This document shows, piece after piece, positions 11,987 to 61,967 of a DNA stretch of 64,000 nucleotides. A program made the position numbers and the translations under genes. Source of the DNA: Stieleria neptunia (GTDB lineage: Bacteria; Planctomycetota; Planctomycetia; Pirellulales; Pirellulaceae); contig NZ_CP037423.1 in assembly GCF_007754155.1 (NCBI RefSeq), positions 7,622,938-7,686,937 of the forward strand. Reading direction: 5' to 3'. The number at the start of each line of letters is the position of its first letter. Within the stretch, counting starts at the first letter, position 1. Under the pieces are notes generated by a model. It made no database searches, was not told the origin of the DNA, and was given only the letters and a program-made list of their open reading frames with translations.

Positions 11987-12156
11987 TGATCGCCTTTGGC
12001 GAACCGAGCCGAGTGATTCTTGATCCACCACGGAACAAGAACAACCAATGTCTTATCCGGCACAACGGATGAAATAGCGGGGATTTTCGCAGCCCAGGCT
12101 CTGCCTCCCTGGTCCGCCGGCGGAGCCGGCCTGAATTGCGTTCCCAAGCGGACCCC

Positions 12157-12286: not shown

Positions 12287-12338
12287 GGGCGGAGCCTGGG
12301 AACAAGTCGCGGCGTGACCTTTATCGCTCGACGGACCC

Positions 12339-27261: not shown

Positions 27262-27318
27262 GTGGGATAGGCTTTCAGCCTGTCGATGCTGAACGGACAG
27301 GCTGGAAGCCTATCCCAC
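27262..27318. repeat. GTGGGATAGGC inverted repeat, second copy
   Basis: Two 23-base arms (27262-27284 and 27296-27318) pair with one mismatch. They match the inner hairpin at 21140-21196, but the loop differs (GATGCTGAACG-like here). It lies between the SGNH gene and the CxxCH protein gene, which share a strand, so it may weaken read-through between them. Confidence 0.75.
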
Positions 27319-29585: not shown

Positions 29586-29634
29586 TCTCAAGCTCCTGGA
29601 GCGGAAATGGCGATGGAACGATTGGCACGGAAGG

Positions 29635-29746
29635 GTACGACGTCCTTTCCAGGTCGTCGGGACAAGTCCCTCGGACGACGGCCCGGAAAGGTACGACGTC
29701 CTTTCCAGGTCGTCGGGACGAGTCCCTCGGACGACGGCCCGGAAGG
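29635..29746. repeat. Two tandem 56-bp repeats
   Basis: Two copies of a 56-bp unit lie head to tail (29635-29690 and 29691-29746) and differ at only a few positions. Each begins GTACGACGTCCTTTCCAGG and contains the inverted words GGTCGTCGGGAC and CCTCGGACGACGGCC. The array ends with GCCGTCGTAC, so it can also fold end to end. It lies upstream of the ThuA gene and downstream of the sulfatase gene. Confidence 0.8.
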
Positions 29747-36923: not shown

Positions 36924-37130
36924 TTTAGCGGTATTGGGCGCAAGCCCTCCGGTCGTTCCATGTGTTTCCGAACCGAAACCGGACGGCTCCCGGGCTGTCG
37001 TTTTTGTGAGCCGCGCGCCGCGTAAGCGGCCGGGCACTGCGACGCTGCCCGAGGCCTTACGGCCAGCGGCTCACCATTGACTCAGCAGATCCCGACTCAA
37101 TCGACAGCCCGCTCGCGCCGTTCCGCTAAC
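36924..37130. repeat. Palindromic repeat family P, copy 3 (interrupted)
   Basis: The left end TTTAGCGGTATTGGGCGCAA and the right end GCTCGCGCCGTTCCGCTAAC are the two halves of a family P palindrome, split by a 123-bp nested element at 36989-37111. It ends 10 bp before the beta-helix gene's stop. A half-copy of the same variant (GCGTAAGCCCAATACCGCTA) lies at 36388-36411, next to the start of the VCBS lipoprotein gene. Confidence 0.8.
36989..37111. mobile_element. Nested 123-bp hairpin element M, copy 1
   Basis: The element begins CGGGCTGTCG and ends CGACAGCCCG, a perfect 10-bp terminal inverted repeat. Inside is a long hairpin (GTGAGCCGC ... GCGGCTCAC, with GGGCA ... TGCCC at its tip) and an asymmetric tail containing GACTCAGCAGATCCCGACTC. 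It is flanked by CTCC (36985-36988) and CTCG (37112-37115), an almost perfect 4-bp duplication. It codes for no protein, so it would be a MITE moved by an enzyme encoded elsewhere. Confidence 0.8.
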
Positions 37131-37139
37131 ATCTTTCAC

Positions 37140-40079
37140 TTATCGCGCCCGCAACTCTTGGAACGCCGTGTTTTCCGCTCGGTCGGTCACCGGCTGGACA
37201 CTCCAAATGATCCAGCGAAATTTTCCCAGGAAGTGTCCCGGCTTGGATTGCAACGCAACGGCATTGAACACTTCGTGCGACGCTCGACGGGTATCGATCG
37301 ATGTCAGCGGTGTGAACTTGGATCGGTCGGCGACGTCCCACCCCGGATCCGTTGACGAATCGCTTCCGTAGAGCGTCAGTTTTTGCGGGCCGCGGACCCC
37401 ATTGAAGTTCGTCGACCAGCTGGTGATCGAAGAAACGTTTTTCGATTCGCCCAGGTCCAAGCGATAGCCCCCGGTGGTCACGCCGTTGGCGAAAACCGGG
37501 CCGTAGCTCTGTTGCAGCTTGCCATCGATCAGCGTCGCCGGCGGCGCGTCACGCGTCGACGGGTTGGCGTCGACCTTGCCGGTCGGTTTTCCTGTCGGCG
37601 CGAGCGTCGCAAAGTCTTCGGCCGTCCCCGCGGATTCGAAAACGATGCGGGGTGCGTTTGGAAGCGATAATTCCATCGGCTGCTGGTTTCGAATCACTTT
37701 CACCTTCAACGCTGCGTCGCCGGCTTGCTGGTACGCCGAGAGTAAATCAGAGACCCGTTTGACCGGCGTTGCGTTGACGCCTTGGATCAAGTCTCCATCG
37801 CTCAGGCCTGCGCTGGCGGCGTCGCTGTTGGGATCGATTTCTGAAATCGCGACACCGCCGTCTTCTTGGGACACTCCATAGGCCGAGAAATCGGAACCTT
37901 TCAGGTCGACCACCCGGGCCCCCAACCAATACGTCGGCTGCGGTGTGACGACGCGGCGGCGATCGGATCGGGGCTTCGCCAATTCTTGCTTCACCTCCAA
38001 CGCCGGGATCTCGGGTGTTGCGGCGATCTGCTTGAGCGAGGGTTTCTTGACGCCGAATTGATCCATGGCAAAATTTTCGAAACCGATGTCAAAGGCCGGC
38101 GACTCGGGGCGGACACGGAAATCGCCGCCCGCCGGATCGATGAACAAGGGGTCGGCGACGATGGAGTGGCGGTCCCATCCGAAGTCGGCGTAACGATCGT
38201 TCATTCCCGGCGTGCTGGCGAAATAGAGATTTGAATCGACCCGTTTTCCTCTGGCGGTCTCCGTCGGGGCGCGGACGCCTTTTGGTGCGGCCATGAAGAT
38301 GTTGCTGAACACTTCATCGCCGCTGTTGTTGTACCAAACGTGTGGGTGCAGACCGTTGTTGACGGTGATGTTGTTCCAGGCCCGACGTCGAAAGCCTTCA
38401 CGAAACTTCAAGCCTCCCGAAAGCATCAGGTTGTTGTAAATGTCGTAGTTGGACGAGCCGTCGTCCAGGTCGATGTCCCAGCCATGGTCGCAGCGCCAGC
38501 GGCTGTCGCGAATCACCGTGGTCTCGACGGCGTCCAAGAACGGGAACTGCGGCTCCTGGTCGATGATTTTCTGACTGGCGCTGCGGTCGCTGCTCCAGTA
38601 GCGGTCTCGCCCCCAGGAGTTGAAGGAGCCGTGGTCGTGAGTCTCTTGCACGGTATCGAAGACATCGCAGCGTTCGATCAGGTGGCCCCCCCAGGCACCG
38701 TCGCCGATGTTGATGCCCGCGCGGGCGCAATCATAAATCGAACAATCGCGAACCGTGATGCCTTGTGCCATCGTGATTTGGACTCCGGCCGGTTGGCGTT
38801 CGACTCGGCCGATTCCATGTATCAAACAGTCTTCGACCACGCAGTCGGCCGGGTACCGATTCGACTTCGGCCCCGGAGTGCGATCGACCTTGACCAGATC
38901 GTTTTTCTGGCGGTATTCAAAGAGCGGATCACGAACGGCATCGGGATCCCCGACAAAGCAAACACCGCTGGCGCCGCAGTCGTGAATGTGGCAACCCTTG
39001 ACGACCACACGGCGGTTGTAATCGCTGACGAAGATCGCGTTGCCGCCGACCTGATCAAATTCGAAATCCAACAGCCTGATGTCCTCGCTGCCGGAGAGCA
39101 AAACGGCGCCGCCGCGATAGATCGTCCAATCCGAACGCAGCATCGGTTCTTTCGTTTCCATGAAGGTCCGCGCGGCATGGCGAACGACAAAACCCTGCAG
39201 GGTAATGAATCGCACGGGGGCATCGGCGGACCCGTTGAATTCGATCAGGTGTCGCAGTCGCACCACTTCGATTTTCGCTCGGCCCAGGTCCACGCCTTGG
39301 GGAGGCATGAAGTACAAGCGGTTCGTGTCCGCGTCGTGATACCATTCGCCGGGCGCGTCCAATTCTTCGAAGATGTTTTCGACCATGCGAAAGTCTTTGT
39401 GCATGCCCATTTGACGGTTGTTTTGCCAGCCGCCTTCATAGGTCACGTCGCCATCGGAGTTTTTGCCGGTGATCCGATAGTGGTAGCCTCCCCAGCGAGC
39501 GCGATGCATGGCGTGAATGAACCCGCCGGTGGGATCGGCCCAGCCGCTGGCGCGTTGTTTGGAGAACGCATCGGCGGCGAAGCCTTGATAGGCTGCGGTC
39601 TTTTGGCTGGCGTCATAATTCGGATAGCGAGCCATCCGTTGTTGGCGTCCCGCCAGAAACAGCTGGTCGATCGCCAAACCCGAAGGGGTCTTGGAGACAA
39701 AGATTCCATCGCGGAAGGGTGTCCATTGCAGGTCGAGCTTGGTCCCGCCGCTGAGCACGGCTTTCCCTTCGTTTTCCGCGCGGTAGAGGACCGGTCGATC
39801 GGGGGCACCGGAGTCGGCGGCGGTGAACGTTAACGTCTCGGGCAGATAATAAACGCCGTCGGCGACGGAGACCGTCACGGGGGCGGTGCCGGCTGATTGC
39901 CGGGCGAGAGACTGCGCCCGACCGAGCGTCGCCACCGGGGCAGCGGCCGAGCCGTCATTGGCATCGTCGCCCGCGGGGCTGACGAAGATGTCGCGGGCAT
40001 GTAAGGAGGCAATGCTTGCGCCGAAGCAGATCAGAATCAACAAGGATCGAAGCATGGGAACTCGTCGTGAACGGGGCAT
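37140..40079 (-). CDS. Exported parallel beta-helix protein with PDZ and discoidin-like domains
   Basis: This 979-residue protein has a signal peptide (MLRSLLILICFGASIASLHA, preceded by a short basic stretch). A right-handed beta-helix domain (about 25-640) begins with RDIFVSPAGDDANDGSAAAP, a motif seen in polysaccharide lyases and glycosidases of this fold, and contains runs such as GITVRDCSIYDCARAGINIGDG. A PDZ domain follows at about 715-800 (VAISEIDPNSDAASAGLSDGDLI). The C-terminus resembles an F5/8-type discoidin domain (DPGWDVADRSKFTPLTS region). The start could also be the ATG at 40055. It lies 34 bp after the regulator gene, so the regulator probably controls it. It may cut or bind an external polysaccharide. 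Confidence 0.85.
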   Translation of the reverse strand: MPRSRRVPMLRSLLILICFGASIASLHARDIFVSPAGDDANDGSAAAPVATLGRAQSLARQSAGTAPVTVSVADGVYYLPETLTFTAADSGAPDRPVLYRAENEGKAVLSGGTKLDLQWTPFRDGIFVSKTPSGLAIDQLFLAGRQQRMARYPNYDASQKTAAYQGFAADAFSKQRASGWADPTGGFIHAMHRARWGGYHYRITGKNSDGDVTYEGGWQNNRQMGMHKDFRMVENIFEELDAPGEWYHDADTNRLYFMPPQGVDLGRAKIEVVRLRHLIEFNGSADAPVRFITLQGFVVRHAARTFMETKEPMLRSDWTIYRGGAVLLSGSEDIRLLDFEFDQVGGNAIFVSDYNRRVVVKGCHIHDCGASGVCFVGDPDAVRDPLFEYRQKNDLVKVDRTPGPKSNRYPADCVVEDCLIHGIGRVERQPAGVQITMAQGITVRDCSIYDCARAGINIGDGAWGGHLIERCDVFDTVQETHDHGSFNSWGRDRYWSSDRSASQKIIDQEPQFPFLDAVETTVIRDSRWRCDHGWDIDLDDGSSNYDIYNNLMLSGGLKFREGFRRRAWNNITVNNGLHPHVWYNNSGDEVFSNIFMAAPKGVRAPTETARGKRVDSNLYFASTPGMNDRYADFGWDRHSIVADPLFIDPAGGDFRVRPESPAFDIGFENFAMDQFGVKKPSLKQIAATPEIPALEVKQELAKPRSDRRRVVTPQPTYWLGARVVDLKGSDFSAYGVSQEDGGVAISEIDPNSDAASAGLSDGDLIQGVNATPVKRVSDLLSAYQQAGDAALKVKVIRNQQPMELSLPNAPRIVFESAGTAEDFATLAPTGKPTGKVDANPSTRDAPPATLIDGKLQQSYGPVFANGVTTGGYRLDLGESKNVSSITSWSTNFNGVRGPQKLTLYGSDSSTDPGWDVADRSKFTPLTSIDTRRASHEVFNAVALQSKPGHFLGKFRWIIWSVQPVTDRAENTAFQELRAR

Positions 40080-40113
40080 CGGAAGGAAGGGTGGCAACCG
40101 TCGGCGAAACGCC

Positions 40114-41349
40114 CTAACGGCTTTTTGACGAAACTGCCGGTGTTTGGAGAAGATCGCCATTGGCTTGTTGTTGCGATCGAAATTCACCGGGCGATTCCCC
40201 GGTCTCGCGTTTGAAAACGGCCCCCAAGCATTCTTTATGACTGTAGCCCGTTTTCGCCGCGATTTGCTCCAGCGTCATGTCCGTTTCTAACAACAACTGC
40301 TTCACGCGTTCCAGCTGGGTAAGCGTGATCTGCTGGTGTGGTGTGCGCCCCAAAACTTCCCGGAACCTCCGCTCCAGCTGTCGGCGGGAAAGGGACGTGA
40401 ACTCGGCGACATCGCCCACATTGATTCCGGAACAGGCGTTTTGTCGAATGAATCGGCACACCCGGGCGATCTCGACATCGTCGACCGCCACGACCTTTGT
40501 CGAAAGGCGTTCGGAGACCGAAATCGGCGGCACGTACTCGATCTCATTTTCTGGCAGCAAGCCATTCATCATCTGTTGCAAAATTTCGGCGGCCCGATAA
40601 CCGACCTGTTCCGCATTGGGGCGGACACTCGACAGCGGAGGGTCACACAACAAACAGAGGGCATCGTCGTCATCGACGCCGATCACGCCCAGGTCATCGG
40701 GGACGGCGATGCTGGACAGCCGACAGGCGTTGAGCACCTGTTGTCCGCGAATGTCATTGCAAACAAACAGGCCGGTCGGTCGCGAAAGCGTCGACAACCA
40801 CTTTGCCAGCGATTCCAATTCCAGCACGCCCGCCTCCTCCAACTGCGTCAACGTCGTGCCGGGGACACCGGGGGACTGGTAGATATCAAAGGGACAATTC
40901 GCGGCATCGACCAACTGTTGAAACGCGGCCAGTCGGGCATCGGAATAGGTGGCAAACCGAAAGCCACAGAATGCGAATCGGCGGAACCCGCGGTCCCACA
41001 GATGCGAGAACGCCATTTCGGCGACGCGCTGGTTATCCGTTTCGACTTGCGGCACGCCGGTGAATTTTCGGTTGCAGCGGACATCGATGATCGGCACCCG
41101 CAATTGACGCAACGGTTCAATCGTGTGCCAGTCCACACGGGCAATCACGCCGTCAATCCGCGAGCTGAAAATCCAATCCGGAATCGCGGAATCCAGCGTC
41201 ATCTCCTGATGCAGCAGCGACCATTCCACGCGTGTTCGCGAAAACAACGCGACTCCGCGAAGCAATTCACGCCCGTAGGCGCGTGACGCTTCGACAAGGA
41301 GTGCGATTCGGGGACGTTTGGATTGATTCACCGCTGCTACCTGTTGCAT
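40114..41349 (-). CDS. XylR-type transcriptional regulator (LacI-like sensor plus AraC HTH)
   Basis: The 411-residue regulator has an N-terminal periplasmic-binding-protein-like sugar sensor (about 12-290): RIALLVEASRAYGRELLRGV, DGVIARVDW, RRFAFCGFRF and DLGVIGVDDDDALCLLCDPPLSSVRPN. A C-terminal AraC-family double helix-turn-helix spans about 305-400 (VGDVAEFTSLSRRQLERRFREVLGRTPHQ and TLEQIAAKTGYSHKECLGAVFKRETGESPGEFR). This layout is that of XylR, which activates pentose genes when sugar binds. The gene downstream encodes a carbohydrate-active-looking beta-helix protein, a likely target. The inducing sugar is unknown. Confidence 0.93.
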   Translation of the reverse strand: MQQVAAVNQSKRPRIALLVEASRAYGRELLRGVALFSRTRVEWSLLHQEMTLDSAIPDWIFSSRIDGVIARVDWHTIEPLRQLRVPIIDVRCNRKFTGVPQVETDNQRVAEMAFSHLWDRGFRRFAFCGFRFATYSDARLAAFQQLVDAANCPFDIYQSPGVPGTTLTQLEEAGVLELESLAKWLSTLSRPTGLFVCNDIRGQQVLNACRLSSIAVPDDLGVIGVDDDDALCLLCDPPLSSVRPNAEQVGYRAAEILQQMMNGLLPENEIEYVPPISVSERLSTKVVAVDDVEIARVCRFIRQNACSGINVGDVAEFTSLSRRQLERRFREVLGRTPHQQITLTQLERVKQLLLETDMTLEQIAAKTGYSHKECLGAVFKRETGESPGEFRSQQQANGDLLQTPAVSSKSR

Positions 41350-41868
41350 GCCACCGGCGCAAGTCAAGAACGGCTGCTCGCGCGTCGCAAATCATTTACG
41401 CCGACGACAAGGCCTTGCGAACATCGGTGGATTCGGCAGGCTACCAGAAACACCTGCGAGTCGCAAATTTCCTGGTCCCAACGGCTGCTCTGGCTGCCCG
41501 ACCTCGATTCCGGTCGAGGCAGCCGAGACAGCGGAGTCTCCACGCTATCGTCCCCCGTCCCCATTGGGACTAAGGATTCGCCATTGTCCCTGCCCAAACA
41601 GAACGGAGAGTCAACTCAACGGAGGGGGGTGATTGATGTGTCGCCAACACGGCGGATGCGGCGCGAAGGAGGCCACGTCTACAAAGAAAAATTGAAAAAG
41701 AAAGCGGAAAATCACGCCACCCGGATGCCGCAGTGACGCAGATTCCGGGGCATTGACGCAAATGATTCGCCCGCCGACGCAAAATCGCATTCCTTCCCTC
41801 GCGTCACAGCGGGTAGGGTAAGACCATACCTCGTTCTTTTCCTTTTCCTTTTTCTACAGGTTTTCGAC
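41350..41868. other. Divergent intergenic region with a hairpin and a short leader-like frame
   Basis: This 519-bp region separates the regulator gene from the DUF1559 gene, which diverge, so it must hold two promoters. A stem-loop at 41492-41523 (GGCTGCCCGACC ... GGTCGAGGCAGCC) has no T-run. A 19-residue frame at 41636-41695 (MCRQHGGCGAKEATSTKKN) is preceded by the very strong GGAGGGGGG but resembles nothing known. No other gene is seen. Confidence 0.45.
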
Positions 41869-43077
41869 ATGACGAAAGCGCGCAAAGCAGGTTTTACACT
41901 CGTCGAACTGCTGGTGGTGATTGCCATCATCGGCATCTTGGTCGGGTTGCTACTGCCGGCGGTCCAGGCGGCCCGTGAAGCGGCTCGACGGATGAGTTGC
42001 AGCAACAATTTCAAGCAGATCGGGTTGGCGATCCACAACTACCATTCCACCTACAAACGCATCCCGGCACACGGGGTTGGCACGACCTCGTTCCCCAGCG
42101 CCGGCAACGCTTGGTGGGCCGCCAACACGTTGGCGAACAACCGTCGACTGAGCGTGCTGGTCGGCATCCTGCCGTTCATCGAGCAGCAATCGATTTGGGA
42201 CATCGTCAGCAACCCCAACGATTTTGACAAGGACGGCGTGATCGATTTTCAATCGATGGGGCCGACGCCCGATCAGATCGATTACCAACCATGGACGATG
42301 GAGATTCCGGGTTATCGTTGCCCAAGTGATCCCGGCGTCGGACTCCCCGCCTTGGGACGCGCCAACTATGCGGCATGCTTGGGCGACAGCACGTGGCAAA
42401 CCATGGTCGGTCCGTGGGACGGAGACTTGGAAGAGCCTGTGGCGAGCGTCCGATTCCAGCGTGCCCAGGCGGGCCACCGCGGCTTCTTCAAGCCGCGCGA
42501 TGCACGCGGTCGGTTTCGTGACGTGCTCGATGGCCTGTCCAACACCATCGCGATGGGTGAAATCGGAACCTATCTCGGTGACAACGACGCTCGGATGGTG
42601 TTGCCCAATGATGGCAGTTCACTGGGAAACAACAACGGTTCGATGAACACCATCCGCGATAATCCAGGTGCCTGTGATGACTTTGTCGATCCCGATCGGC
42701 CCCGGTTTTGGCTCAACGGTGGTTCGCGGACCACGCGTGCACGAGGTTTTCGCTGGGCGGACTTCAAACAGATTTTCACCGGATGCTTCACGATCCTGCC
42801 TCCCAACGGCGTCTATTGTTCGCGGCACAACGGCGACGACTTGACCGGGACCGCCCCGATGTCCAGTCGGCACCAAGGTGGTGTCCACGTCTTGATGGGC
42901 GACGGAGCCGTCATCTTCATGAGCGACTCGGTCGAGGCCGGCAGTCGCAACCAAGGCGACGTTTGGATCAACGGCACCGGCATCAGAGCCCCCGGAAGTC
43001 CCAGCCCGCACGGGCTTTGGGGAGCCTTGGGCACACGTGCGGCGAACGAAACGATCCAGGAACAACTGAATCAGTAG
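41869..43077 (+). CDS. DUF1559 protein with type IV pilin-like N-terminus
   Basis: The 402-residue protein begins with a prepilin signal: short basic leader MTKARKAG, then FTLVELLVVIAIIGILVGLLLPAV, with the expected Glu at position 5 of the mature chain. The DUF1559 body follows, with its usual CSNNFKQIGLAIHNYHSTYKRIP and the C-terminal H-x-GG-VHVLMGDGAV motif. A prepilin peptidase should process it, leaving a pseudopilin-like surface or periplasmic protein. The family is hugely expanded in planctomycetes and its function is unknown. A small lipoprotein gene follows, as is usual. Confidence 0.95.
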   Translation: MTKARKAGFTLVELLVVIAIIGILVGLLLPAVQAAREAARRMSCSNNFKQIGLAIHNYHSTYKRIPAHGVGTTSFPSAGNAWWAANTLANNRRLSVLVGILPFIEQQSIWDIVSNPNDFDKDGVIDFQSMGPTPDQIDYQPWTMEIPGYRCPSDPGVGLPALGRANYAACLGDSTWQTMVGPWDGDLEEPVASVRFQRAQAGHRGFFKPRDARGRFRDVLDGLSNTIAMGEIGTYLGDNDARMVLPNDGSSLGNNNGSMNTIRDNPGACDDFVDPDRPRFWLNGGSRTTRARGFRWADFKQIFTGCFTILPPNGVYCSRHNGDDLTGTAPMSSRHQGGVHVLMGDGAVIFMSDSVEAGSRNQGDVWINGTGIRAPGSPSPHGLWGALGTRAANETIQEQLNQ

Positions 43078-43257
43078 CGCTCGCCCACGCCTGGACAGTT
43101 GGTCGGTTGAAGCCCGCATGCCATGACGAGGAGCCACGCAGCGTTTCTCGCCAACGCGTCGGGCAAACATGATCGCGTTGAACTGGGGTTGTCGACTCCA
43201 TCGACAACCCCTTGTGGGAACGCGATGAAGCATTTTCCCGATGTGTTTCTTGTGGTT

Positions 43258-43330
43258 TTAGCGGCAGGGCGCGAGCCCTCCGGTTCTTCATCTTTGCCAG
43301 AACACCGGAGGGCTCGCGCCCTACCGCTAT
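43258..43330. repeat. Palindromic repeat family P, copy 4
   Basis: Left arm TTAGCGGCAGGGCGCGAGCC and right arm GGCTCGCGCCCTACCGCTA pair over most of their length, and the inner GGAGGG/CCCTCC words also pair. Outer words around it (GATGAAGCATTT at 43224-43235 and AAATGCTTCAC at 43332-43342) form a second layer. It is not interrupted by the nested element. It lies between the DUF1559 gene and its companion lipoprotein gene; nothing else is seen in 43078-43438. Confidence 0.8.
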
Positions 43331-43438
43331 CAAATGCTTCACAGCGTTGCCCTTGCGGGAAGGCGATGCACTTTGCGATCGCCTTCCTCTTTTTTTGATT
43401 CTTTCTTTCCGTCAATCAAAACCAGTTTGAAAGCCACG

Positions 43439-43633
43439 ATGAAAATCCGATCTCTCTTGTTCCTCGTCGCAGCCACCGTTTGTGGCGCCGTTTCCTTCAG
43501 CGGATGCTCCGGAAACCAGCCGACGTCCGTCACCGAAGATGCCGATCAAGCCGCCATCGATGCGTACAAGGAAATGGAAGCGAAGCTGGAGGCAGAAACC
43601 ATGGGGCAAATGGAAGGCGACGACCTCCAATAG
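43439..43633 (+). CDS. Small lipoprotein companion of DUF1559
   Basis: The 64-residue product has a lipoprotein signal (MKIRSLLFLVAATVCGAVSFSGC) with a lipobox-like SFSGC and the acylated Cys at residue 23. The mature part is short, acidic and helical (DADQAAIDAYKEMEAKLEAE). Small lipoproteins of this sort commonly follow DUF1559 genes in planctomycetes, so a shared complex is plausible. The ATG at 43439 is chosen over upstream in-frame starts because it begins the signal peptide. The gap 43634-43868 holds nothing I can support. Confidence 0.78.
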   Translation: MKIRSLLFLVAATVCGAVSFSGCSGNQPTSVTEDADQAAIDAYKEMEAKLEAETMGQMEGDDLQ

Positions 43634-43868
43634 CAACCGGCATCTCCCTCGCACGTCGCTCTCCACAATCCGGAGAGCGACCGCGGGGGAACCCGCCGTT
43701 CCCACCGCACCGGGACCGCTCGCGGGCGTTCCGCTAACAACGCGCGCGGCAGCAATGGCCGAGACGTTTATGGGCGAGTGTACCAAGACGCCCGCGAGAA
43801 CGACTCCGACGCGGGTTGGGACGATATGATGGTCTCCCGTCACTTTGACAAAACGACCATGACAAGAA

Positions 43869-45245: not shown

Positions 45246-45259
45246 CCAGAGGAAGTGAC

Positions 45260-46741: not shown

Positions 46742-46781
46742 TGCTTTGTCAGCTTTCAGTTTTCGAGCCTGCGTTTGTCGA

Positions 46782-46859
46782 GCGGAAAAGGGGTCAGGTA
46801 CCAAAAACCAAATGGCCCGCAGGGTGCTTCGCATTTTTGGTACCTGACCCCTATTCCGC
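46782..46859. repeat. GGGGTCAGGTACC inverted repeat between convergent genes
   Basis: The arms GCGGAAAAGGGGTCAGGTAC (46782 on) and GGTACCTGACCCCTATTCCG pair with one mismatch over about 26 bases, including a perfect 19-base core, around a 26-base loop. It sits between two converging genes and may end transcription in both directions. GGTACCTGACCCC-type palindromes are seen with REP-associated transposases in other bacteria, so a mobile origin is possible; no such gene is in this window. Confidence 0.75.
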
Positions 46860-46896
46860 GGTACCCTAAGTATCAAAGTTGACGAAGCACTATTTG

Positions 46897-47685: not shown

Positions 47686-47833
47686 TTCGCCATCGATCGG
47701 ATGATCGCGCCAAGGGTCGTAAAAGAAAGGCCGACTAGGAACATCGACCAATCCGTCGCGGCTCTGTCGAACCGATGAACCAATCGGCAAAGTCGACGTG
47801 GTTTAACCTGCGGGGACCAAGCTGTGAAGCATT

Positions 47834-48032
47834 TTTAGCGGTCGGGCGCGAGCGGGCTGTCGTTTTTGTGAGCCGCGCGCCGCGTAAGCGGCCGGGCACT
47901 GCGACTCTGCCCGAGGCCTTACGGCCAGCGGCTCACCATTGACTCAGCAGATCCCGACTCAATCGACAGCCCGCGAGCCCTCCGGTGTTTCGGCAACGAT
48001 GGGCAAGCCGGAGGGCTCGCGCCCTGCCGCTG
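47834..48032. repeat. Palindromic repeat family P, copy 5 (interrupted)
   Basis: The left part TTTAGCGGTCGGGCGCGAG is separated from its continuation CGAGCCCTCCGGTG by a 121-bp nested element (47853-47973). The right arm GGAGGGCTCGCGCCCTGCCG completes the palindrome. In this copy the element entered the left arm, not the right. The rest of 47686-48198 (with GATTCACAGCGTTGCCGCGG just after the repeat) shows no gene. Confidence 0.8.
47853..47973. mobile_element. Nested hairpin element M, copy 2 (121 bp)
   Basis: It has the same 10-bp terminal inverted repeat (CGGGCTGTCG and CGACAGCCCG) and internal hairpin as copy 1. Its flanks are a perfect 4-bp duplication, CGAG (47849-47852 and 47974-47977). 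CGAG is the complement of the CTCG flank at copy 4. Removing the element and one CGAG restores an intact family P arm. Confidence 0.85.
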
Positions 48033-48198
48033 ACGCCTTAAGAACCCCGGGGAAAAAATGATTCACAGCGTTGCCGCGGGGAGCGCAAAACGCTCCAAAT
48101 CGCACGATTTCGGAAACGCTGGCCGTTCGTGTAAACTGGTGGGGCCGATTTGACGGTCCCACCTTTTCCCCTGCACTTCCAGCCCCTGGTCTCTCGCC

Positions 48199-52016: not shown

Positions 52017-52043
52017 GGCTTGCTGTGCTTGCCGGTTGACCTG

Positions 52044-52460
52044 CTACTTGTCCCCCGGCTCTGCCGCCTGGGAACACACTGTCGCGGAGGCTCCGCCTCT
52101 CGGTCGTCAACCGCGTGTGGCAGAGCCACACCGGCATTGCGTTCCAAGGCGGGGCCTTGGAACGAGGGGGCGACGGGGCATCTACTTGTTCCCAGGCTCC
52201 CGCCTGGGGACACACTGTCGCGGAGGCTCCGCCTCGCGACCGTCAACCGCGTGTGGCAGAGCCACGCCGGCATTGCGTTCCAAGGCGGAGCCTTGGAACG
52301 AGGGGCGACGGGGCATCTACTTGTTCCCAGGCTGCCGCCTGGGAACACACTGTCGCGGAGGCTCCGCCTCTCGGTCGTCAACCGCGTGTGGCAGAGCCAC
52401 ACCGGCATTGCGTTCCAAGGCGGGGCCTTGGAACGAGGGGGCGAGGGGGCGACGGGGCAT
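52044..52460. repeat. Three tandem copies of a ~137-bp repeat
   Basis: Units start with TACTTGTT/TCCCAGGCT-like words at 52044, 52183 and 52318 and are about 139, 135 and 143 bp long. Each carries CACTGTCGCGGAGGCTCCGC, CAACCGCGTGTGGCAGAGCC and a hairpin GTTCCAAGGCGGGGCCTTGG. The units are over 90% alike by eye. The block fills nearly all of 52017-52480, between the DUF1592-type gene and the ABC-F gene, which converge. Long open frames across it on both strands arise from the repetition and are not genes. Confidence 0.85.
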
Positions 52461-52480
52461 GCACGGCGTGAGCGACACGC

Positions 52481-54262
<1,782 letters not shown>

Positions 54263-54380
54263 ATCGGCGGACAGAGGGGGGCAGGAGGGCGCGAAATGGA
54301 AACGCCGGTGAGGTTACCAAGCCGACGCCGAATCGTCGACTGTGGTAGGACCGCCGATGGCGCGTGGAGCGAGGAAACGC

Positions 54381-55112
54381 TCACGACGTCCGTTTGGGGG
54401 CGGCGACGTTCTTGGTCGGGCGGCGTTTGATCGGGGCCAATGCGTGCTGGACTTGGAACGCGACGTCCGCGATCAGCGTGTCGACTCGGTTGCGGCTGAC
54501 GGCATAGGCCGCCAATGCGGGAATCGCAACGACCAAGCCGCCGACGGTGGTCACCAACGCCTGGTAAATCCCTTCGGCCAAGTCACCGGCTCCCGCGGCC
54601 CCCCGCGTCGTGGCGACTTGCTGGAACGCAAAAATCATCCCGGTCACCGTTCCCAACAGCCCGACCATCGGGGCGATGTTGCCGATCACGGACAAGTATT
54701 CGATCCGTCGCATCATGCGGGCGGACTGTTCCGCGAGCGCATCCTCGACCGCCTTTTCCACGCCCTGCCAGCCGTACTCGACTTCCGCAATCCCCGACAA
54801 CAACACCACGCTCAGAACGCTCGGTTCACGCCGGCACGCCGCATCGGCTTCTTGCAGCCGGCCGGTCAGCAAGGCTTGGCGGACGGTTTCGCTCAACCCC
54901 TCCGGCAAGACTTCGCCACGGCGGAGCGTCATCACCTGGTCGAACACCAGGTACGCCGCCAAAAAGCTGAGCGAAAGCAGCACCACCAAGATGACCGCGC
55001 CGACGATCCCGCCGCTGAGCACGATGTCCAGCAACCCCGCGCTCTCGGCCGCCTGGTCGGCATTTCCTTGGGCAAGCAACACCTCAAATTGAATCGGCAA
55101 TCCCTGCGGCAT
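54381..55112 (-). CDS. MotA/TolQ/ExbB proton-channel family protein
   Basis: The 243-residue protein has three membrane segments: about 26-58 (GLLDIVLSGGIVGAVILVVLLSLSFLAAYLVF), about 135-158 (SVIGNIAPMVGLLGTVTGMIFAF) and about 185-210 (GIYQALVTTVGGLVVAIPALAAYAV). The signature GLLGTVTGMI, with its conserved Thr, matches the family. These inner-membrane proteins use the ion gradient to power TonB-, Tol- or motor-type machines with an ExbD/MotB partner. No partner gene is next to it. The start at 55112 gives a normal N-terminus. It lies downstream of the GTPase operon across a repeat. Confidence 0.9.
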   Translation of the reverse strand: MPQGLPIQFEVLLAQGNADQAAESAGLLDIVLSGGIVGAVILVVLLSLSFLAAYLVFDQVMTLRRGEVLPEGLSETVRQALLTGRLQEADAACRREPSVLSVVLLSGIAEVEYGWQGVEKAVEDALAEQSARMMRRIEYLSVIGNIAPMVGLLGTVTGMIFAFQQVATTRGAAGAGDLAEGIYQALVTTVGGLVVAIPALAAYAVSRNRVDTLIADVAFQVQHALAPIKRRPTKNVAAPKRTS

Positions 55113-55299
55113 GGTTGGCTGGTGGATCAGTGGTGACGGTGCGGTGAAGGAGGATGCACAGTGTATCAGTTCACCGTCGTCGCGAAACGGTCGGTGGGAA
55201 TCAGGGAACCCGTGGCAGAATGATTCGGGGCAGAATGATCGGAACCCGTGGGCTGGCGCGCCAGGCCATCGACTCTGACGCCAAGCGGAATGTTTGTTG

Positions 55300-55436
55300 T
55301 TAGCGGTAGGGCGCAAGCGGGCTGCCGTTTTTGTGAGCCGCGACGCGTAAGCGGCCGGGCACTGCGACGCTGCCCGAGGCCTTACGGCCAGCGGCTCACC
55401 ATTGACTCAGCAGATCCCGACTCAATCGACAGCCCG
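55300..55436. repeat. Palindromic repeat family P, copy 6 (left half only)
   Basis: Only the left arm TTAGCGGTAGGGCGCAAG (55300-55317) of family P is present, followed directly by the nested element. The right arm is missing and the element runs up to the GTPase gene. The preceding 20 bp (GACGCCAAGCGG...TGTTT) match the sequence before copy 1 at 2857-2872. The rest of 55113-55436 holds no gene. Confidence 0.7.
55318..55436. mobile_element. Nested hairpin element M, copy 3 (119 bp)
   Basis: The left terminal repeat has one change (CGGGCTGCCG) and the right one is intact (CGACAGCCCG). The internal hairpin and tail match the other copies. The flanks are CAAG on the left and CTAG on the right, which agree at three of four positions. 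CTA at 55437-55439 is the complement of the TAG stop codon of the neighbouring GTPase gene, so the element ends exactly where that gene ends. Confidence 0.8.
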
Positions 55437-57290
55437 CTAGTGTCGACCGGCGGACACCAGGAACTCGGCGTCGGTCAACAGCGGATCGTCCCAGCGAAGT
55501 CGCAGCACACGGTCTTGTTGCAACTCCGCGATCGCTTCGTCATGACCGTGGCGAATGGCGTGTTGAGCCCGCTGCGTGCGGCCGTTGGATTGCGCCGCGG
55601 AGAGCGCGATCATCGCAAAAATCGCGGTCGGCAAGAGCGACAGCACCAAACTGGTGAGCACCATCGCGAATTCGGGTTTGGGAAAATGCTCCAGCGGATG
55701 CTGCCCCTCTCCGGCGTCTTGCGCCGAGACCTGGACCAGGGTGTCGTAGCTGGCTTTCAAGTATTCGCCGTAGAGGGCGACAAAGGGGCCGGCCATCAGC
55801 AGCCAAAAGATCAGCGTGCCGACGATCGCCATGATCGTGGCGGTCGACGGTGAGATCGAATTCTGCTCGACCGCGTCTTCAAAGATCTCGTGCGAGCGTT
55901 CTTGCAGGGCATCGATGCCGGCCAGCGAGGCGACGTGTTGAGTTTCGGAGTGCGACGTGACGCGCCACGGATCGCCGGGGATTGATTTGCCGTCGTCGCC
56001 CTGATCGGCGTTTCTGAGCAACGCCAACTCCTCTCGAAACTGTGCCGCCAGCGGGCCCAGTCGATCGGTGACTGCCGCGGCACTGCGGCGTTGTAGCCCG
56101 TCACGGAGTTCGTCGTTGGCGTTGCGATCCGATGTCAGACTGCGCGTCGAAGTCCAGATCGTGCTGACCAACGACGGAAGCGAACCCGAGAGCGACAACA
56201 GCACGCGATCCCAGGCCCCATGCGTCAAATTCAACACGCCCAAGATCGAACGGTAGGGAAACCAAATGGCGCCGGTCGATGTCAACAGTTTCAAACGCAA
56301 CCGGCTGCGAACGGCGGCCTGCATCGGACCGTCGGGCCCGATCAACGTTTGTGCGACTTCGCCCGGCAGTTTCGTCGCTTCGTCGTTCAACCGATTGACC
56401 GCACGGGTCAGGCCCGGCAGTTCGTCGGCCAGCAACCCGCTGAGTGCGGATCGGAATCGACCGTCCAGGGCCGCCAGCCGGGTCGATTTGCGCCGATCGC
56501 TGTCGGGGTTGTTTTCCAATTCGATTTGCAACTGGCGGAGCAGTTCGGTTGCGGCCTGCGCCCCGATCTGCTGTTCGCTTTCGCCGCTGAGTTCAAAATC
56601 GGTGACCTGGATCGGGCGGGCGATGACGCTCTCGGGCGCGGCGGTCCGCAGGTTCGCCAGGAAGGCATCGATGTCCGCATGCAGCGCCGCATCGTCGACA
56701 CCGATCGTATTGACCACGGGGATGACGATCGTGCCTTCGCTGGCCACCGCAAGCGCGGCTGGGGTTTGGCCACGAATCTGATCGCGGCGGACGACCAACA
56801 CGATCGCCGACGCCAGCGAGAGTGCCCGTTTGGCGACCTCGGCGATCCCTTGCCGATCATCCGTCGCCCCGGGCGCATCGACGAGCATGTAGGGCGTACC
56901 GATCGGCTCCATGTCGGCCGAGGACACCCGGACGAATCGTTCAAAACGCGGGTCCAGATCGACCGGCGTGTGCGGGCCGACCCACACCAGTTCCTCCGTC
57001 GCCTGGTCGGCATTGTTGCCGCTGCGAATGGAAGCGGCCAGCGGCGAGCGACGAATCAATTGGCGGATCAGCCACGATTTGCCTTGTCCGGTCGCGCCCA
57101 CGACCGCCAAGACCAACGCGCCGGCGGCCCGATCTTGTGAGATCAGGTGACGGGCCCGGGCGTGTTCCTCACACAGCGATCGAACTTGGCGCCCCGTTTC
57201 GCTGTCGCCCAAAACCGACGCCCCGGCGCGACGAACCCGGTTCAAAAATTCGTCGTCAGGGGTCACGGTGTCTGCGAAGGATTCATGCAT
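55437..57290 (-). CDS. Divergent membrane GTPase, second of a tandem pair
   Basis: The 617-residue protein has a P-loop GATGQGKS (65-72), a G3-like DAPG (138-141) and a possible G4-like NTIGVD (194-199) instead of NKxD. A helical middle follows (about 270-480). Two hydrophobic segments near the C-terminus (about 500-525, IMAIVGTLIFWLLMAGPFVALY, and 555-580, MVLTSLVLSLLPTAIFAMIALSA) suggest membrane anchoring. The layout recalls dynamin-like or GIMAP-like GTPases but I cannot place it in a named family. It overlaps the first GTPase gene by 8 bp. Its last codon ends at the border of a nested repeat element, so the C-terminus may have been trimmed. Confidence 0.75.
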   Translation of the reverse strand: MHESFADTVTPDDEFLNRVRRAGASVLGDSETGRQVRSLCEEHARARHLISQDRAAGALVLAVVGATGQGKSWLIRQLIRRSPLAASIRSGNNADQATEELVWVGPHTPVDLDPRFERFVRVSSADMEPIGTPYMLVDAPGATDDRQGIAEVAKRALSLASAIVLVVRRDQIRGQTPAALAVASEGTIVIPVVNTIGVDDAALHADIDAFLANLRTAAPESVIARPIQVTDFELSGESEQQIGAQAATELLRQLQIELENNPDSDRRKSTRLAALDGRFRSALSGLLADELPGLTRAVNRLNDEATKLPGEVAQTLIGPDGPMQAAVRSRLRLKLLTSTGAIWFPYRSILGVLNLTHGAWDRVLLSLSGSLPSLVSTIWTSTRSLTSDRNANDELRDGLQRRSAAAVTDRLGPLAAQFREELALLRNADQGDDGKSIPGDPWRVTSHSETQHVASLAGIDALQERSHEIFEDAVEQNSISPSTATIMAIVGTLIFWLLMAGPFVALYGEYLKASYDTLVQVSAQDAGEGQHPLEHFPKPEFAMVLTSLVLSLLPTAIFAMIALSAAQSNGRTQRAQHAIRHGHDEAIAELQQDRVLRLRWDDPLLTDAEFLVSAGRH

Positions 57291-59409
57291 GTTTGGACTC
57301 GCGGGGCAGGATCCCGTTCAATTCTTGGCGAAACGTTTGATTCATACGATAGACCGCCAGCGTCGCGTTTGCTCCGCCACCGGCAGCGACCTTTACATTC
57401 GGAGTCGGGAACATGATGTTGGATTGTTTGAGACGGATCGAGGGAAGCGGGCTGCCGGGATCGATACCGATCTGGTGACACAGCAAGACATAGAACATCG
57501 ACATCTGTTCGACCGCGGCTTGGGTGCTGAGCGTCTGGGCCGTCTTTCCGCCGGCCCAGTAGGCTGAAAAAGCGGTCAGCCCGGCGGCGGCCAGCAGTTC
57601 GACGACCGAGGCGTTGGCGACCAGAACGGTCGCGCCGAAATCGACCGGCAACATCAGCACGCTTCCGAACGTGGCCAGCAGAGCCGCCAACGGTGTCAAC
57701 CCGAAGGCCAACTTTTTGTGACGCGGGATCTGACGCCACATCTCTTCGGCGACGCCACGCAATTGATCGCTATCGAACACGACGCGGTCATTTTCATGAA
57801 ACGTTTGCAACACCTCGTGCATCGACTGGGTCCACGCGGCGGGATCGATCGGATCGTTTTGCCCGTCAAACCAATGCGGCAACGTCAACGGCGCGCCGAA
57901 CCGCCGAAGCGACGTGTCCAGGTCCTCCGGATCGACGAGTTGGCCGACCTTCTTCGCCTTGAATTTCTCCTTGATCGATTCGGCATACCGTTCCGCCATC
58001 GCGGTCGGCACGTACTGTTTGAACAAATCAGACGCCGCCTTGGTGCGGCCTTGGATGAACGTGTTGATCTTCACACCCCAGCGGGCGTACCAGGGTGCGG
58101 CTTCGCAGAACGCGTCGGCCAGCTGGCGGACGATGCGTTCGGATTGGTGCATCCGAACCTCCGTGATCGCACCTCCGGTCGACTGCTTTGTGAACAGGCT
58201 GATCGTCGTGTCCAACAGCGTTTGCCTTGCCCGCTCGGTCAACCGCAGCGATTGCTCGGCGTCCTTTTCGACCGCGGCCAGACCCATGTCCCAGACCGCG
58301 CGACGCAGTGCGGCATGGCGTCCCATCAAAAAACGATCCGACGATTCCGGGCGATCCAACTCACGCGTCAGATGGGTCAATAATCGATCGCAGCCGATCT
58401 CCGCCGGCGGGTTTTCGTCGGGATGCGTCGAGAGCGAAAAGAAAATCGGGAGCGGATCGTCGTCGGGGTTTTCGATCGTGACTTCCTGGTCCCCGTCTTT
58501 GGCCGATTTCGGAATAAAGGGTTCGCTTTTGGGCAACTCGTAATCGTAGGCCCCGTAAACTCTTTCGACGCCGAATTTGCTGGCCTGGGGTTCGAAGGAT
58601 TCCAACACATCTTCGGGGGTTTGCCCGGGGCGAATCTTGTTGACCGCCAGCAGACGCGGAATGCCGGGCATCAAGTCCGAGATCGTTTGCAGGATGTCCC
58701 CGAGCGAACGGTCGCGGGCCATGCTGGGTGTCGACACGACCAGAAAGGCGCTGCAAAACGTCGATGCCTTGCCCAGCAGTTCACGTCTTCGCTCCGGCGA
58801 CCCGACGCCAAAGACTTCGTCGGAAACGATGTCGGGGCAATCCAGCAAACCGATCCCCAAATCATCCAACGCCGGATCGGTCGCGACCAGTGGAACGCCC
58901 AACGCGTCGACGCCGCCGCTGCGGTTGTTGTATTGTTCATGCGCCTCTTCGGGCATTTCGGCCAACAACTCCGGGGCATGACCGACGGCATCGCCAAAAT
59001 CATCCAGCAACAACTGCCACAACGCGGATTCTTCACGCCATTTCTGGGGCAGCCACAAAACGAATCGGTGCGTGCCTTGGCGGTTGGCGACACCACGCAG
59101 CGTGCGGGCGCGACCGTGCCGGCTGAGCAGCCCGGCGACCAGGCTGGTTTTACCGCTGTTGAGCATGCCGGCGACGGCCAACGTCGGGTACTCGGCCAAG
59201 CGGGCACCATGGAAAACTTGGCGTCCCAGTGACACCACGTCGCCGGCCAAGTTCGGTTGGACGCGACGAAGTGACGAGAGGAAACTTTCGTTGCGGGGAT
59301 CGGGGTACAGACGCTCGACCGCGGCTCGACGATCATCGTCTTCGAGTAACGCTTTCAAACGCGGCCAGTCGACCTGGGTCGGGGTTTTTCGTCGTTTGTG
59401 ACCAAACAT
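57283..59409 (-). CDS. Divergent dynamin-like GTPase, first of a tandem pair
   Basis: The 708-residue protein has a P-loop GMLNSGKT (81-88), a G3-like DCPD (190-193) in place of DxxG, and G4 NKIR (257-260) in place of NKxD. A long helical region follows (about 340-580). A hydrophobic hairpin lies at about 590-640 (LTPLAALLATFGSVLMLPVDFGATVLVANASVVELLAAAG). This order, GTPase head, helical stalk and membrane paddle, is that of bacterial dynamin-like proteins, which remodel membranes; the link is by layout only. It starts 9 bp after the receptor kinase gene's stop and overlaps the second GTPase gene by 8 bp. It probably works with its neighbour as a pair. Confidence 0.75.
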   Translation of the reverse strand: MFGHKRRKTPTQVDWPRLKALLEDDDRRAAVERLYPDPRNESFLSSLRRVQPNLAGDVVSLGRQVFHGARLAEYPTLAVAGMLNSGKTSLVAGLLSRHGRARTLRGVANRQGTHRFVLWLPQKWREESALWQLLLDDFGDAVGHAPELLAEMPEEAHEQYNNRSGGVDALGVPLVATDPALDDLGIGLLDCPDIVSDEVFGVGSPERRRELLGKASTFCSAFLVVSTPSMARDRSLGDILQTISDLMPGIPRLLAVNKIRPGQTPEDVLESFEPQASKFGVERVYGAYDYELPKSEPFIPKSAKDGDQEVTIENPDDDPLPIFFSLSTHPDENPPAEIGCDRLLTHLTRELDRPESSDRFLMGRHAALRRAVWDMGLAAVEKDAEQSLRLTERARQTLLDTTISLFTKQSTGGAITEVRMHQSERIVRQLADAFCEAAPWYARWGVKINTFIQGRTKAASDLFKQYVPTAMAERYAESIKEKFKAKKVGQLVDPEDLDTSLRRFGAPLTLPHWFDGQNDPIDPAAWTQSMHEVLQTFHENDRVVFDSDQLRGVAEEMWRQIPRHKKLAFGLTPLAALLATFGSVLMLPVDFGATVLVANASVVELLAAAGLTAFSAYWAGGKTAQTLSTQAAVEQMSMFYVLLCHQIGIDPGSPLPSIRLKQSNIMFPTPNVKVAAGGGANATLAVYRMNQTFRQELNGILPRESKHA

Positions 59410-59418
59410 ATCCGGTGT

Positions 59419-61686
59419 TCAGCTCGCCGTTGATTGGGCCAGTGGGCTTGCCGCTGGACGTTTTTCGTTCACGGCGGTGTCACCTTGGGTGCCTTCGGCC
59501 GATGGATTGTCTTCGCTCAGCTCAAAATCGTCCAAGTACGGGCCGTCGAAAATCTCACGCCACCATAAAGCAGCATCCGCTTGCGTCCAATGGGGACTGT
59601 CCGCACACGCCAACAGCTCGTTTGCCAATTGCTGAGCGGACTGGGGCCGTGTGAGCGGATCCAGATGCAGGCAGCGCAGCAGGACCCGTTGAAGATCCTT
59701 GGCCAGCGGGACGCCGATGCGCCGCTCCGGGGGCTCCGGTTCCTCGTGAAGTTTTTTGGCGCACACGTCGGTCGCCGATTCGCCCTCCAACGGAGCGTGA
59801 CCGCACAGCAGAGTATAGCCGACCGCACCGATCGAATAGATGTCGCTGAGCACATCGGCCGAGGCGGCATCACGAATCGCCTCGGGCGACATGTAAAGCG
59901 GTGTGCCGGTCAGCGAATCGACGCGCGTCAATTGCATCGATTCATGGTCGATCTGTTTCGCCAATCCAAAATCGAGCACTTTGATCAAGTCATGGATCCC
60001 GCTGCGTGAGGTCAACAGGACGTTGGCCGGTTTGATGTCGCGGTGAATCATGCCCGCCGCATGGGCTTCGGCGATCGACCCGCAGATCTGAAGCAACAGA
60101 TAGATCACTCGCTCGGCCGGTTGACGTCCGTAGTAGTCCACCAGCTGTTCCAGCGAGATCCCTTCGACATACTCCATGACGTAAAAGAACGTGCCTTCGT
60201 CGGTTCGTCCGAAGTCGTAGATTTCGACCGTATTGGGATGTTTCAAGCGTGCCGACAGCTGGACTTCACGCTGGAACCTGGCCAGGGATCGCTCGGTCGC
60301 ATTGGCGTTTTCGAGGACTTTGATGGCGACTTTGCGATCCAGCAAACCGTGCTCGCCCAAATACACAGTGCCCATGCCTCCGCGTCCGATTCGCTGCTGC
60401 AGATCGTATTGTCCCAATCGTCGCTTCAGCTCCTCGACTCGGTCTGCATTGATGTCGCGCGGTCGCGTGATCCAAACCAACCCCAACAGAATCGCCGCGG
60501 CGATCGACACGGCGCCGAACAGGGCGAGGAACGAATTGCGCAAAATCCGCAGCGACGCAAACGCCTCTTCGACCTCCAACTCGCTGGCGATGCCGAAATG
60601 GTATTCGGACAGCCAAGTCCACGCGCCGACCACGGGAACGCCTCGATAGCCGTTGTATCCGACGACATTCGAACCGACGCCTCCACGCGTCGCATGGTCC
60701 GCCATCCACGTCAGCGGCCAGGTCGCCGGTTCCCCCGGCACCGAGTTTCGCGCGCGAATGTCCACGCCGGGATCGCGGACCTGAATCTTCAGCGGGCTCG
60801 TTTCGCCGGGTGACAGTAGCCCCGCTTGGGTCAACTGAGATTCGAAACGACTGCTCGAGATCATCACCGCGTTTCGGTCGAAGGCATAGGTCTCACCGCT
60901 GCTGCCCATCTGGGCGACCGACAAGATCTTGCTGAACTGTTTGGCCGGATCGATCATCAGCACCACCGAACCGGTCGTTCGCAGGTCGTCTCGAACGGGG
61001 GCGACCGCACACATGACCGCCATCCGACCGGTCGGCGTTTCCGCTTCGCCGGCGCGGCGGATTTCGATCTCGAAGGGACGTGTCACGGACACCGTACCGG
61101 CCGTCAATCGCGCGAACAGATCTTGGCCCAGTGGGATCGTGCCGCCGTTGAACCGGGCGTCACTGGAATCCAGCACTCCGCCCAACGGATCCACGATCGC
61201 CCATCCCAAGTAGCCGGCATCACTCAGCCGCGCCGTCAGGGCCTTTAAATATTCCGATCGATTGGGGCCCCGTTCGTGCACCGCCGCGAGATCACCCGCC
61301 GGCTCGGATGCTTTGGAATGCTGTTCCAATAACTCGATCGCGTAACCCCGCAATCCATCTTCGGCCGCGTACAGTTTTGCCGTTTCACGTTGGTCGGCAA
61401 GCCACAACTGCAACGCGTTGATGTTGGCCGCCAACACGGTTTCCAACGAATTGCGAATGCTGCCCCGCACGCTCTCGCGGACCAGCCAGCCGACATACAG
61501 CGTCACGCCCAACAAGACCGCGACGACCAGGGACGCGATCACCGGCGACAAGGGGCCGACCGGGGCCTGCCGAACGACGCTCATGATCGTCGACTGGCCG
61601 AGACCGCGCCGCGCGCGGGGGGAACCGTCCAGTGTTTTCCACTGCGAACGTGTTTCTTGATGGCGTTTTGCGTTGTCTTGGGGCAT
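59419..61686 (-). CDS. Receptor Ser/Thr protein kinase with extracytoplasmic Cache domain
   Basis: The 755-residue protein has a first membrane segment (about 46-69, SPVIASLVVAVLLGVTLYVGWLV). A double-Cache-like sensor domain (about 75-375) follows, then a second membrane segment (386-406). The cytoplasmic kinase domain (about 427-690) has G-loop IGRGGMGTVY, Lys456 in VAIKVL, catalytic HRD (Asp550), DFG (Asp572) and GTPLYMSPEA. All catalytic residues are intact. Cache domains bind small ligands such as amino or organic acids outside the membrane; ligand unknown. It is the first gene of an operon followed by two membrane GTPase genes, which are plausible substrates or outputs. Confidence 0.93.
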   Translation of the reverse strand: MPQDNAKRHQETRSQWKTLDGSPRARRGLGQSTIMSVVRQAPVGPLSPVIASLVVAVLLGVTLYVGWLVRESVRGSIRNSLETVLAANINALQLWLADQRETAKLYAAEDGLRGYAIELLEQHSKASEPAGDLAAVHERGPNRSEYLKALTARLSDAGYLGWAIVDPLGGVLDSSDARFNGGTIPLGQDLFARLTAGTVSVTRPFEIEIRRAGEAETPTGRMAVMCAVAPVRDDLRTTGSVVLMIDPAKQFSKILSVAQMGSSGETYAFDRNAVMISSSRFESQLTQAGLLSPGETSPLKIQVRDPGVDIRARNSVPGEPATWPLTWMADHATRGGVGSNVVGYNGYRGVPVVGAWTWLSEYHFGIASELEVEEAFASLRILRNSFLALFGAVSIAAAILLGLVWITRPRDINADRVEELKRRLGQYDLQQRIGRGGMGTVYLGEHGLLDRKVAIKVLENANATERSLARFQREVQLSARLKHPNTVEIYDFGRTDEGTFFYVMEYVEGISLEQLVDYYGRQPAERVIYLLLQICGSIAEAHAAGMIHRDIKPANVLLTSRSGIHDLIKVLDFGLAKQIDHESMQLTRVDSLTGTPLYMSPEAIRDAASADVLSDIYSIGAVGYTLLCGHAPLEGESATDVCAKKLHEEPEPPERRIGVPLAKDLQRVLLRCLHLDPLTRPQSAQQLANELLACADSPHWTQADAALWWREIFDGPYLDDFELSEDNPSAEGTQGDTAVNEKRPAASPLAQSTAS

Positions 61687-61763
61687 CGTGCCAGTATACG
61701 AAACGGAGGGGACCGCGCCGCTTCCACTTGTTCCCAGGTTCCGCCCTACGCCGTGAACGATTT

Positions 61764-61967
61764 TTTGGCGGCAGGGCGCGAGCCCTCCGGTCTTTCACGG
61801 TGTTTTTGAAACGCAACCGGACGGCTCGCGGGCTGTCGATTGAGTCGGGATCTGCTGAGTTAATGGTGAGCCGCTGGCCGTAAGGCCTCGGGCGGGCGTC
61901 GCAGTGCCCGGCCGCTTACGCGTCGCAGCTCACAAAAACGACAGCCCGCTCGCGCCGTTCCGCTAAC
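61764..61967. repeat. Palindromic repeat family P, copy 7 (interrupted)
   Basis: The left end TTTGGCGGCAGGGCGCGAGC and right end GCTCGCGCCGTTCCGCTAAC frame a nested element at 61829-61948. Before it stands TACGCCGTGAACGA, the same outer word as copy 2. It lies between the divergent kinase and sulfatase genes; the remainder of 61687-62072 shows no gene. Confidence 0.8.
61829..61948. mobile_element. Nested hairpin element M, copy 4 (120 bp, inverted)
   Basis: This copy is in the opposite orientation to the others: the tail (ATTGAGTCGGGATCTGCTGA) comes first and the hairpin second. The terminal repeats CGGGCTGTCG and CGACAGCCCG are perfect and the flanks are a perfect CTCG duplication (61825-61828 and 61949-61952). 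Orientation differs, yet the insertion point in the host palindrome is the same, which argues for target choice rather than simple co-duplication. Confidence 0.85.

Follow-up and report, generated by a model that had tools for sequence, protein, structure and literature searches.

A target-specific miniature element in a palindromic repeat family of Stieleria neptunia and its probable IS1182-family partner

Introduction

Why does a short hairpin element come to lie, again and again, at one point inside the copies of a palindromic repeat? The question is raised by a stretch of 64,000 nucleotides from Stieleria neptunia (contig NZ_CP037423.1, positions 7,622,938 to 7,686,937; hereafter the window), part of a 10.98-Mb single-contig genome from the genus that holds Stieleria. 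An earlier note, made from the letters of this window, had described four copies of an element nested in a palindrome family, here called P, and had proposed a target-specific miniature inverted-repeat transposable element (MITE) with a 4-bp target duplication. The target-specific MITE is real and well supported, both by empty sites in relatives and by an insertion sequence (IS) of Stieleria magnilauensis that has nearly the same ends and occupies the same point. Most probably, the MITE is mobilized in trans by a transposase of the IS1182 family, which enters hairpin loops, mainly those of the P arms, with a stagger of 4 bp. Beyond the earlier note, the present analysis adds the IS1182 family, the loop of a small hairpin as the insertion point, a preference for one arm type (AACGG), and the use of other palindromes in other hosts.

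Results

The element lies at one point of the P palindrome and is flanked by a 4-bp duplication

The bounds of the copies were set by their 10-bp inverted ends, CGGGCTGTCG and CGACAGCCCG, which are present in all four copies, with one substitution in copy 3. Copies 2 (47853-47973, forward strand, 121 bp), 3 (55318-55436, forward strand, 119 bp), and 4 (61829-61948, reverse strand, 120 bp) have the extents first reported, whereas copy 1 (36991-37111, forward strand, 121 bp) starts 2 bp later than the position 36989 originally given. Copies 1 and 2 are 99% identical. Copy 2 interrupts the left arm of its P palindrome, and copies 1 and 4 interrupt right arms; the idea that every copy sits inside P applies only in part to copy 3, which lies in a P half on its left side, the other half being absent. 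As originally described, perfect duplications flank copy 2 (CGAG, 47849-47852 and 47974-47977) and copy 4 (CTCG, 61825-61828 and 61949-61952), and the flanks of copy 1, CTCC (36987-36990) and CTCG (37112-37115), agree in 3/4 bases. The flanks of copy 3, CAAG (55314-55317) and CTAG (55437-55440), show no duplication; the right one overlaps the stop codon of the open reading frame at 55437-57290 on the reverse strand. The internal hairpin is borne out by folding: the RNA fold of the MITE reaches -65 kcal/mol (z -6.1 relative to shuffled sequences), and its outer stem of 10 bp encloses two arms, one of which branches, in a cloverleaf-like arrangement. The window gave no match to Rfam at gathering scores.

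The target itself is made up of two small hairpins, one inverted relative to the other. Uninterrupted P palindromes are located at 2873-2952, which folds as a long hairpin (DNA, z -6.1), and, with approximate bounds, at 12173-12250 and 43256-43333. A single P arm forms a small hairpin, either AGGGC-GCGA-GCCCT or ACGGC-GCGA-GCCGT, and the insertion point, GGCG[CGAG]CC with the duplicated word in brackets, lies within the hairpin loop (GGGC-GCGA-GCCC). P copies at 12140-12303 and 48008-48075 are embedded in longer inverted repeats (TACGCCGTGAACGA... and GCTGTGAAGCATT...), and P may thus form the core of a more extended palindrome.

Copies across the genome favor P

To describe the element genome-wide, an unselected sample of three contiguous stretches including the window (1.264 Mb in total) was used. 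BLAST matches to the MITE numbered 36, of which two are weak and two others represent the halves of a single disrupted copy; 32 were near-full-length, spanning most of the element, which extrapolates to approximately 280 copies per genome. An enlarged set (n = 58) combined these 32 copies with 26 from the best-matching loci of the same genome. The element has no coding capacity, is 118 to 133 bp long (53 copies), and carries 10-bp inverted ends; mean pairwise identity is 92.4% for 53 copies and 89.1% for the 27 full-length copies of the sample.

Membership in P was scored in two ways. By a strict arm test, 24 of the 32 sample copies are located in P arms, as opposed to 0.0023 expected under random placement; by a lenient flank test, 17 are flanked by P on both sides and 11 on one, which leaves 4 without P. 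With 28/32 in P and perfect 4-bp duplications at 15/32 sample copies and 37/58 in the enlarged set, neither of two outcomes that the earlier note had named as contrary to its proposal, i.e., copies lying mostly outside P and flanks without duplication, was encountered. The picture is not uniform: 17/32 sample copies lack a perfect duplication, several of them by a single substitution and others through loss of a flank. Copies outside P duplicate other words (CTGG, CTAG, CAAG, and TCAA); the repeat is therefore made on insertion and is not merely part of P. The orientation of the MITE relative to the P arm is 20 versus 4 in the strictly scored sample and 30 versus 17, with 11 unassigned, among all 58 copies.

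Empty sites in relatives

The comparison of occupied and empty orthologous sites that had been suggested earlier was tried on 10 copies, with 15 copies listed as having some comparator. Clean one-to-one empty sites were obtained for two copies only, namely copies 2 and 4. At both loci, Stieleria sedimenti and Rhodopirellula sp. SM50, which like S. magnilauensis are placed in the same genus, have an uninterrupted P in which the tetranucleotide (CGAG or CTCG) occurs once; the alignments of the left and right flanks share exactly 4 bp. S. magnilauensis has no P at the locus of copy 2; at that of copy 4 an intact P is lacking, and an apparent single element end lies beside GCGAG. The copy 3 site is a ruin, with an intact P in Rhodopirellula sp. 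SM50, a P with a different insertion in S. sedimenti, and the end of another element in S. magnilauensis, and no comparator locus for copy 1 was found in the relatives. A weaker case is the copy at 9800001:245474, for which S. magnilauensis has a P array without the element at matching ends. At most other comparator loci, divergence or rearrangement of the intergenic DNA is too great for such a comparison.

These sites bear on one alternative, which is that P and the element were copied together as one unit, with no repeated targeted insertion. Most copies are indeed nested in P, as such copying would produce, but element-free P palindromes at the same loci in two relatives contradict it. Nesting is also not invariable: copies occur in either arm, in both orientations, in two arm types, and at different loci, and a few lie off P with duplications of their own. 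The nest was therefore not copied as one unit, an explanation we regard as extremely improbable.

An IS1182-family element with nearly the same ends

S. magnilauensis contains an IS of 1993 bp with ends CGGCCTGTCGGTTTAGTG and ACTAAATCGACAGGCCG, which lies within a P arm and is flanked on either side by CGAG. Its terminal bases, CGGCCTGTCG, equal those of the MITE, CGGGCTGTCG, in 9/10 positions and differ in 1/10, and further bases inside the ends agree as well. The encoded protein is an IS1182-family transposase (NF033551, 329.3 bits against a cut-off of 270; PF13751 and PF05598). The genome carries 36 copies at 99 to 100% protein identity, all of them bounded. By the lenient test, which here includes among the positives some arms that resemble P or Q (L182, L184; Q is a palindrome described below) and tandem neighbours (L171), 34/36 are associated with P, on both sides in 24 cases, on one side in 10, and on none in 2. 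Perfect 4-bp duplications flank 30/36 (CTCG 11, CGAG 7, CAAG 6, CTAG 3, CTTG 2, and CATG 1). A second IS of S. magnilauensis, 40% identical to the first, has ends CGGCCTGTTGATTT, which resemble those of MITEs in another genome of the genus, G003. The 1993-bp IS is likely the parent of the MITE. In the P arrays of S. magnilauensis, neighbouring copies of this IS also stand in tandem (L195-L197 and L171/L173).

The transposase gene with matching ends that the earlier note had proposed to look for is thus present in a relative; in the S. neptunia genome, searches with the S. magnilauensis transposase and with the IS1182 model revealed no IS with matching ends. The genome has only two copies of a distant 1579-bp IS1182-family IS, whose ends, AGGCTGTGAATAATTGG, are unlike those of the MITE. 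Both copies (L201 and L202, at approximately 1.676 and 3.302 Mb) abut P arms at another point and show a 5-bp duplication, CGGAG. A search of the sample for paired ends at most 4.5 kb apart with equal 4-bp flanks gave no apparent IS, the inner open reading frames not being read singly; the pairs consisted of poorly matching ends, of two separate MITEs, or of a disrupted copy. Among 196 genomes of the order, nothing was found at an E value of 1e-120, a threshold that would also miss relatives at 40% identity.

Related MITEs use other palindromes in other hosts

In G003, of the same genus, and G026, of another genus in the same family, the 30 best-matching loci each were inspected; these sets are not random and are biased to element sites. 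The G003 relative of the MITE is 117 bp long and has recognisable ends at 28/30 loci, the other two being dropped; a perfect duplication is present in 23/28, always CTAG, and 18/28 lie in a palindrome Q, GGCGCTAGCC. After omission of 12 loci without recognisable ends, the G026 relative is represented by 18/30 loci, of which 14/18 have a perfect duplication (TTGA 7, TCAA 5, TTGG 1, and CCAA 1) and 13/18 lie in a palindrome R. Within these biased sets, the loci from G003 are rich in Q and those from G026 in R. An alignment of 10 copies from each of three genomes plus one from G001 extends over most of the length with a shared fold, and its outer stem has paired changes, as inverted ends would. 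Relatives of the MITE use other palindromes in other hosts, the targets in the three genomes being P at CGAG, Q at CTAG, and R at TCAA/TTGA. One copy outside P in S. neptunia, own_9800001:82238, occupies an R-like site with TCAA duplicated. In G001 (L066, 1501-1630), a related MITE itself contains a Q-type hairpin, GGCGCTAGCC, the target of the G003 MITE.

Hairpin stems at sites outside P

The stem around the duplication was evaluated at nine sites outside P. L026 and L191 were kept despite imperfect duplications, whereas the P- or Q-like sites L017, L182, and L184 and two sites without duplication (4400001:255693 and 9800001:229778) were left out. The mean stem was 4.1, compared with 2.3 in word-matched controls, and 9/200000 resamples were as high; taken one at a time, the hairpins are mixed.

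Other repeats in the window

A further hairpin is repeated at 21140-21196 and 27262-27318, as GTGGGATAGGCTTCCAGCCTGTCG and in complementary form. Tandem repeats occur at 52031-52436 (135 bp, three units) and 29624-29735 (56 bp, two units).

Discussion

What moves the element, and how might it find its target? As we picture it, the MITE is a non-autonomous element that would be moved in trans by a DDE transposase of the IS1182 family. Insertion by this transposase would be staggered by 4 bp and would take place in the loop of a small hairpin, whose shape would help in the choice of target. In S. neptunia, the commonest such hairpins would be the P arms (stem ACGGC/AGGGC, loop GCGA, stem GCCGT/GCCCT), and copies would accumulate there for that reason, duplicating CGAG or CTCG. 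Intact cores number 51 per Mb for P in the sample, 0 for the Q core, and 3 for the R word.

Several observations weigh against this picture, some touching the partner and some the target. As to the partner, besides the lack of a matching IS in searches of the genome itself, no IS1182 gene was found at an E value of 1e-40 in 12/13 relatives searched with the IS1182 model, S. magnilauensis alone having one, and among the negative genomes S. sedimenti, G003, Rhodopirellula sp. SM50, and G026 have many MITEs. Together with the fact that the two IS1182 genes of S. neptunia are distant and have other ends, this would fit a transposase of another family moving the MITE, the IS of S. magnilauensis having acquired its ends and target by convergence. 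Such convergence would have to extend to the target point, which is exactly the same, to the length of the duplication, to 9/10 terminal bases, and to further bases inside the ends, and to account as well for the likeness between the ends of the second, 40%-identical IS and the G003 MITEs. Loss of the parent while MITEs persist is common, which also counts against a partner from another family; we consider that explanation improbable.

As to the target, the duplicated CGAG is offset by one base from the loop GCGA in P, and five of the nine sites outside P have stems of 2 to 3 bp, a length reached by about a third or more (at least 30%) of controls. Furthermore, AACGG-type arms (16 occupied and 7 intact in the sample) are used far more than CAGGG-type arms (8 occupied and 49 intact; Fisher P = 2.7e-6), although both form 5-bp stems, and sequence therefore matters too in target choice. 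With the same MITE and an IS1182-type partner, the enzyme might accordingly read a short symmetric double-stranded sequence (about CG-CNNG-CG/CC) instead of a shape, P being the commonest good match. The arm preference speaks for such a reading, as do sites outside P, such as CG-CTGG-CG and CG-CTAG-CG, that have only 3-bp stems, and CNNG fits most duplications. It accords less well with target words that differ by host (CGAG, CTAG, and TCAA/TTGA) and always fall at a palindrome centre, with stems of 7 and 8 bp at two sites outside P, and with the hairpin targets known for the IS1182 family (PMC4923244, PMC5678879; here and below, statements on papers cited by identifier refer to the portions available). 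Recognition of sequence is a possibility that we take seriously, while finding it somewhat doubtful. At barely less than an even chance, we consider structure-guided transposition with loop duplication, in which this subgroup of IS1182 elements and its MITEs would target the loops of those short palindromes that a given host has in abundance, splitting the hairpin without deleting it.

The system makes the palindrome choice of IS1182 elements directly testable, since it offers dozens of natural insertions, two empty sites, a burst of 36 IS copies, and relatives with other palindromes; so far, this choice rests on IS1272, whose target is deleted. It also illustrates a safe-harbour habit, with 16/23 AACGG-type P arms occupied in the sample, and a transposase directed to hairpin loops could have practical applications. 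If loop duplication is correct, dozens of independent natural insertions would exemplify a pathway that the IS1272 authors drew only as a possible one.

How does this compare with known systems? REPINs, or dimers of repetitive extragenic palindromic (REP) sequences, consist of two small hairpins in inverted order and resemble P (PMC3733652); they differ in that P is here the target and not the inserted element. No P arm was found within approximately 1.5 kb on either side of seven Y1_Tnp genes, which speaks against P as a REP linked to REP-associated tyrosine transposases (RAYTs). REP-seeking IS such as ISPpu9 and ISRm22, from the IS3, IS110, IS4, IS256, and IS5 families, insert like the present element at a fixed point of a high-copy palindrome, but they have transposases of other families, IS1182 not being listed in the available part of the source, and are full IS and not MITEs (PMC1525189). 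Within the IS1182 family, a duplication of 4 bp, as observed here, is also listed for ISPse1 of Paracoccus; the portion of that paper at hand describes no palindrome target (PMC3281130). Among the titles and abstracts listed by searches of the open-licence literature, none concerned insertion into REP loops by IS1182 elements or their MITEs in Planctomycetes.

The closest parallels are IS1272 and TnSha1 of staphylococci, which likewise combine an IS1182-family transposase with hairpin or inverted-repeat targets. Insertion of IS1272 into an inverted repeat eliminates the repeat and produces no duplication; a review to which the IS1272 authors refer names palindromes as targets of some members of the IS1182 family (PMC5678879, PMC4923244), and they draw loop duplication as one possible pathway only (PMC5678879). 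According to the same excerpts, IS1272 and TnSha1 delete all or part of the hairpin, produce no duplication, and have little target sequence preference. Unlike those of these two elements, the present insertions split the hairpin at its loop, duplicate 4 bp, and are nearly all confined to one repeat family; with 4-bp duplications and both hairpin halves retained, they do not follow the stem-loop replacement of IS1272. That a member of the IS1182 family, IS1272, targets hairpins was already known; what is new here is that the hairpin is kept and 4 bp are duplicated.

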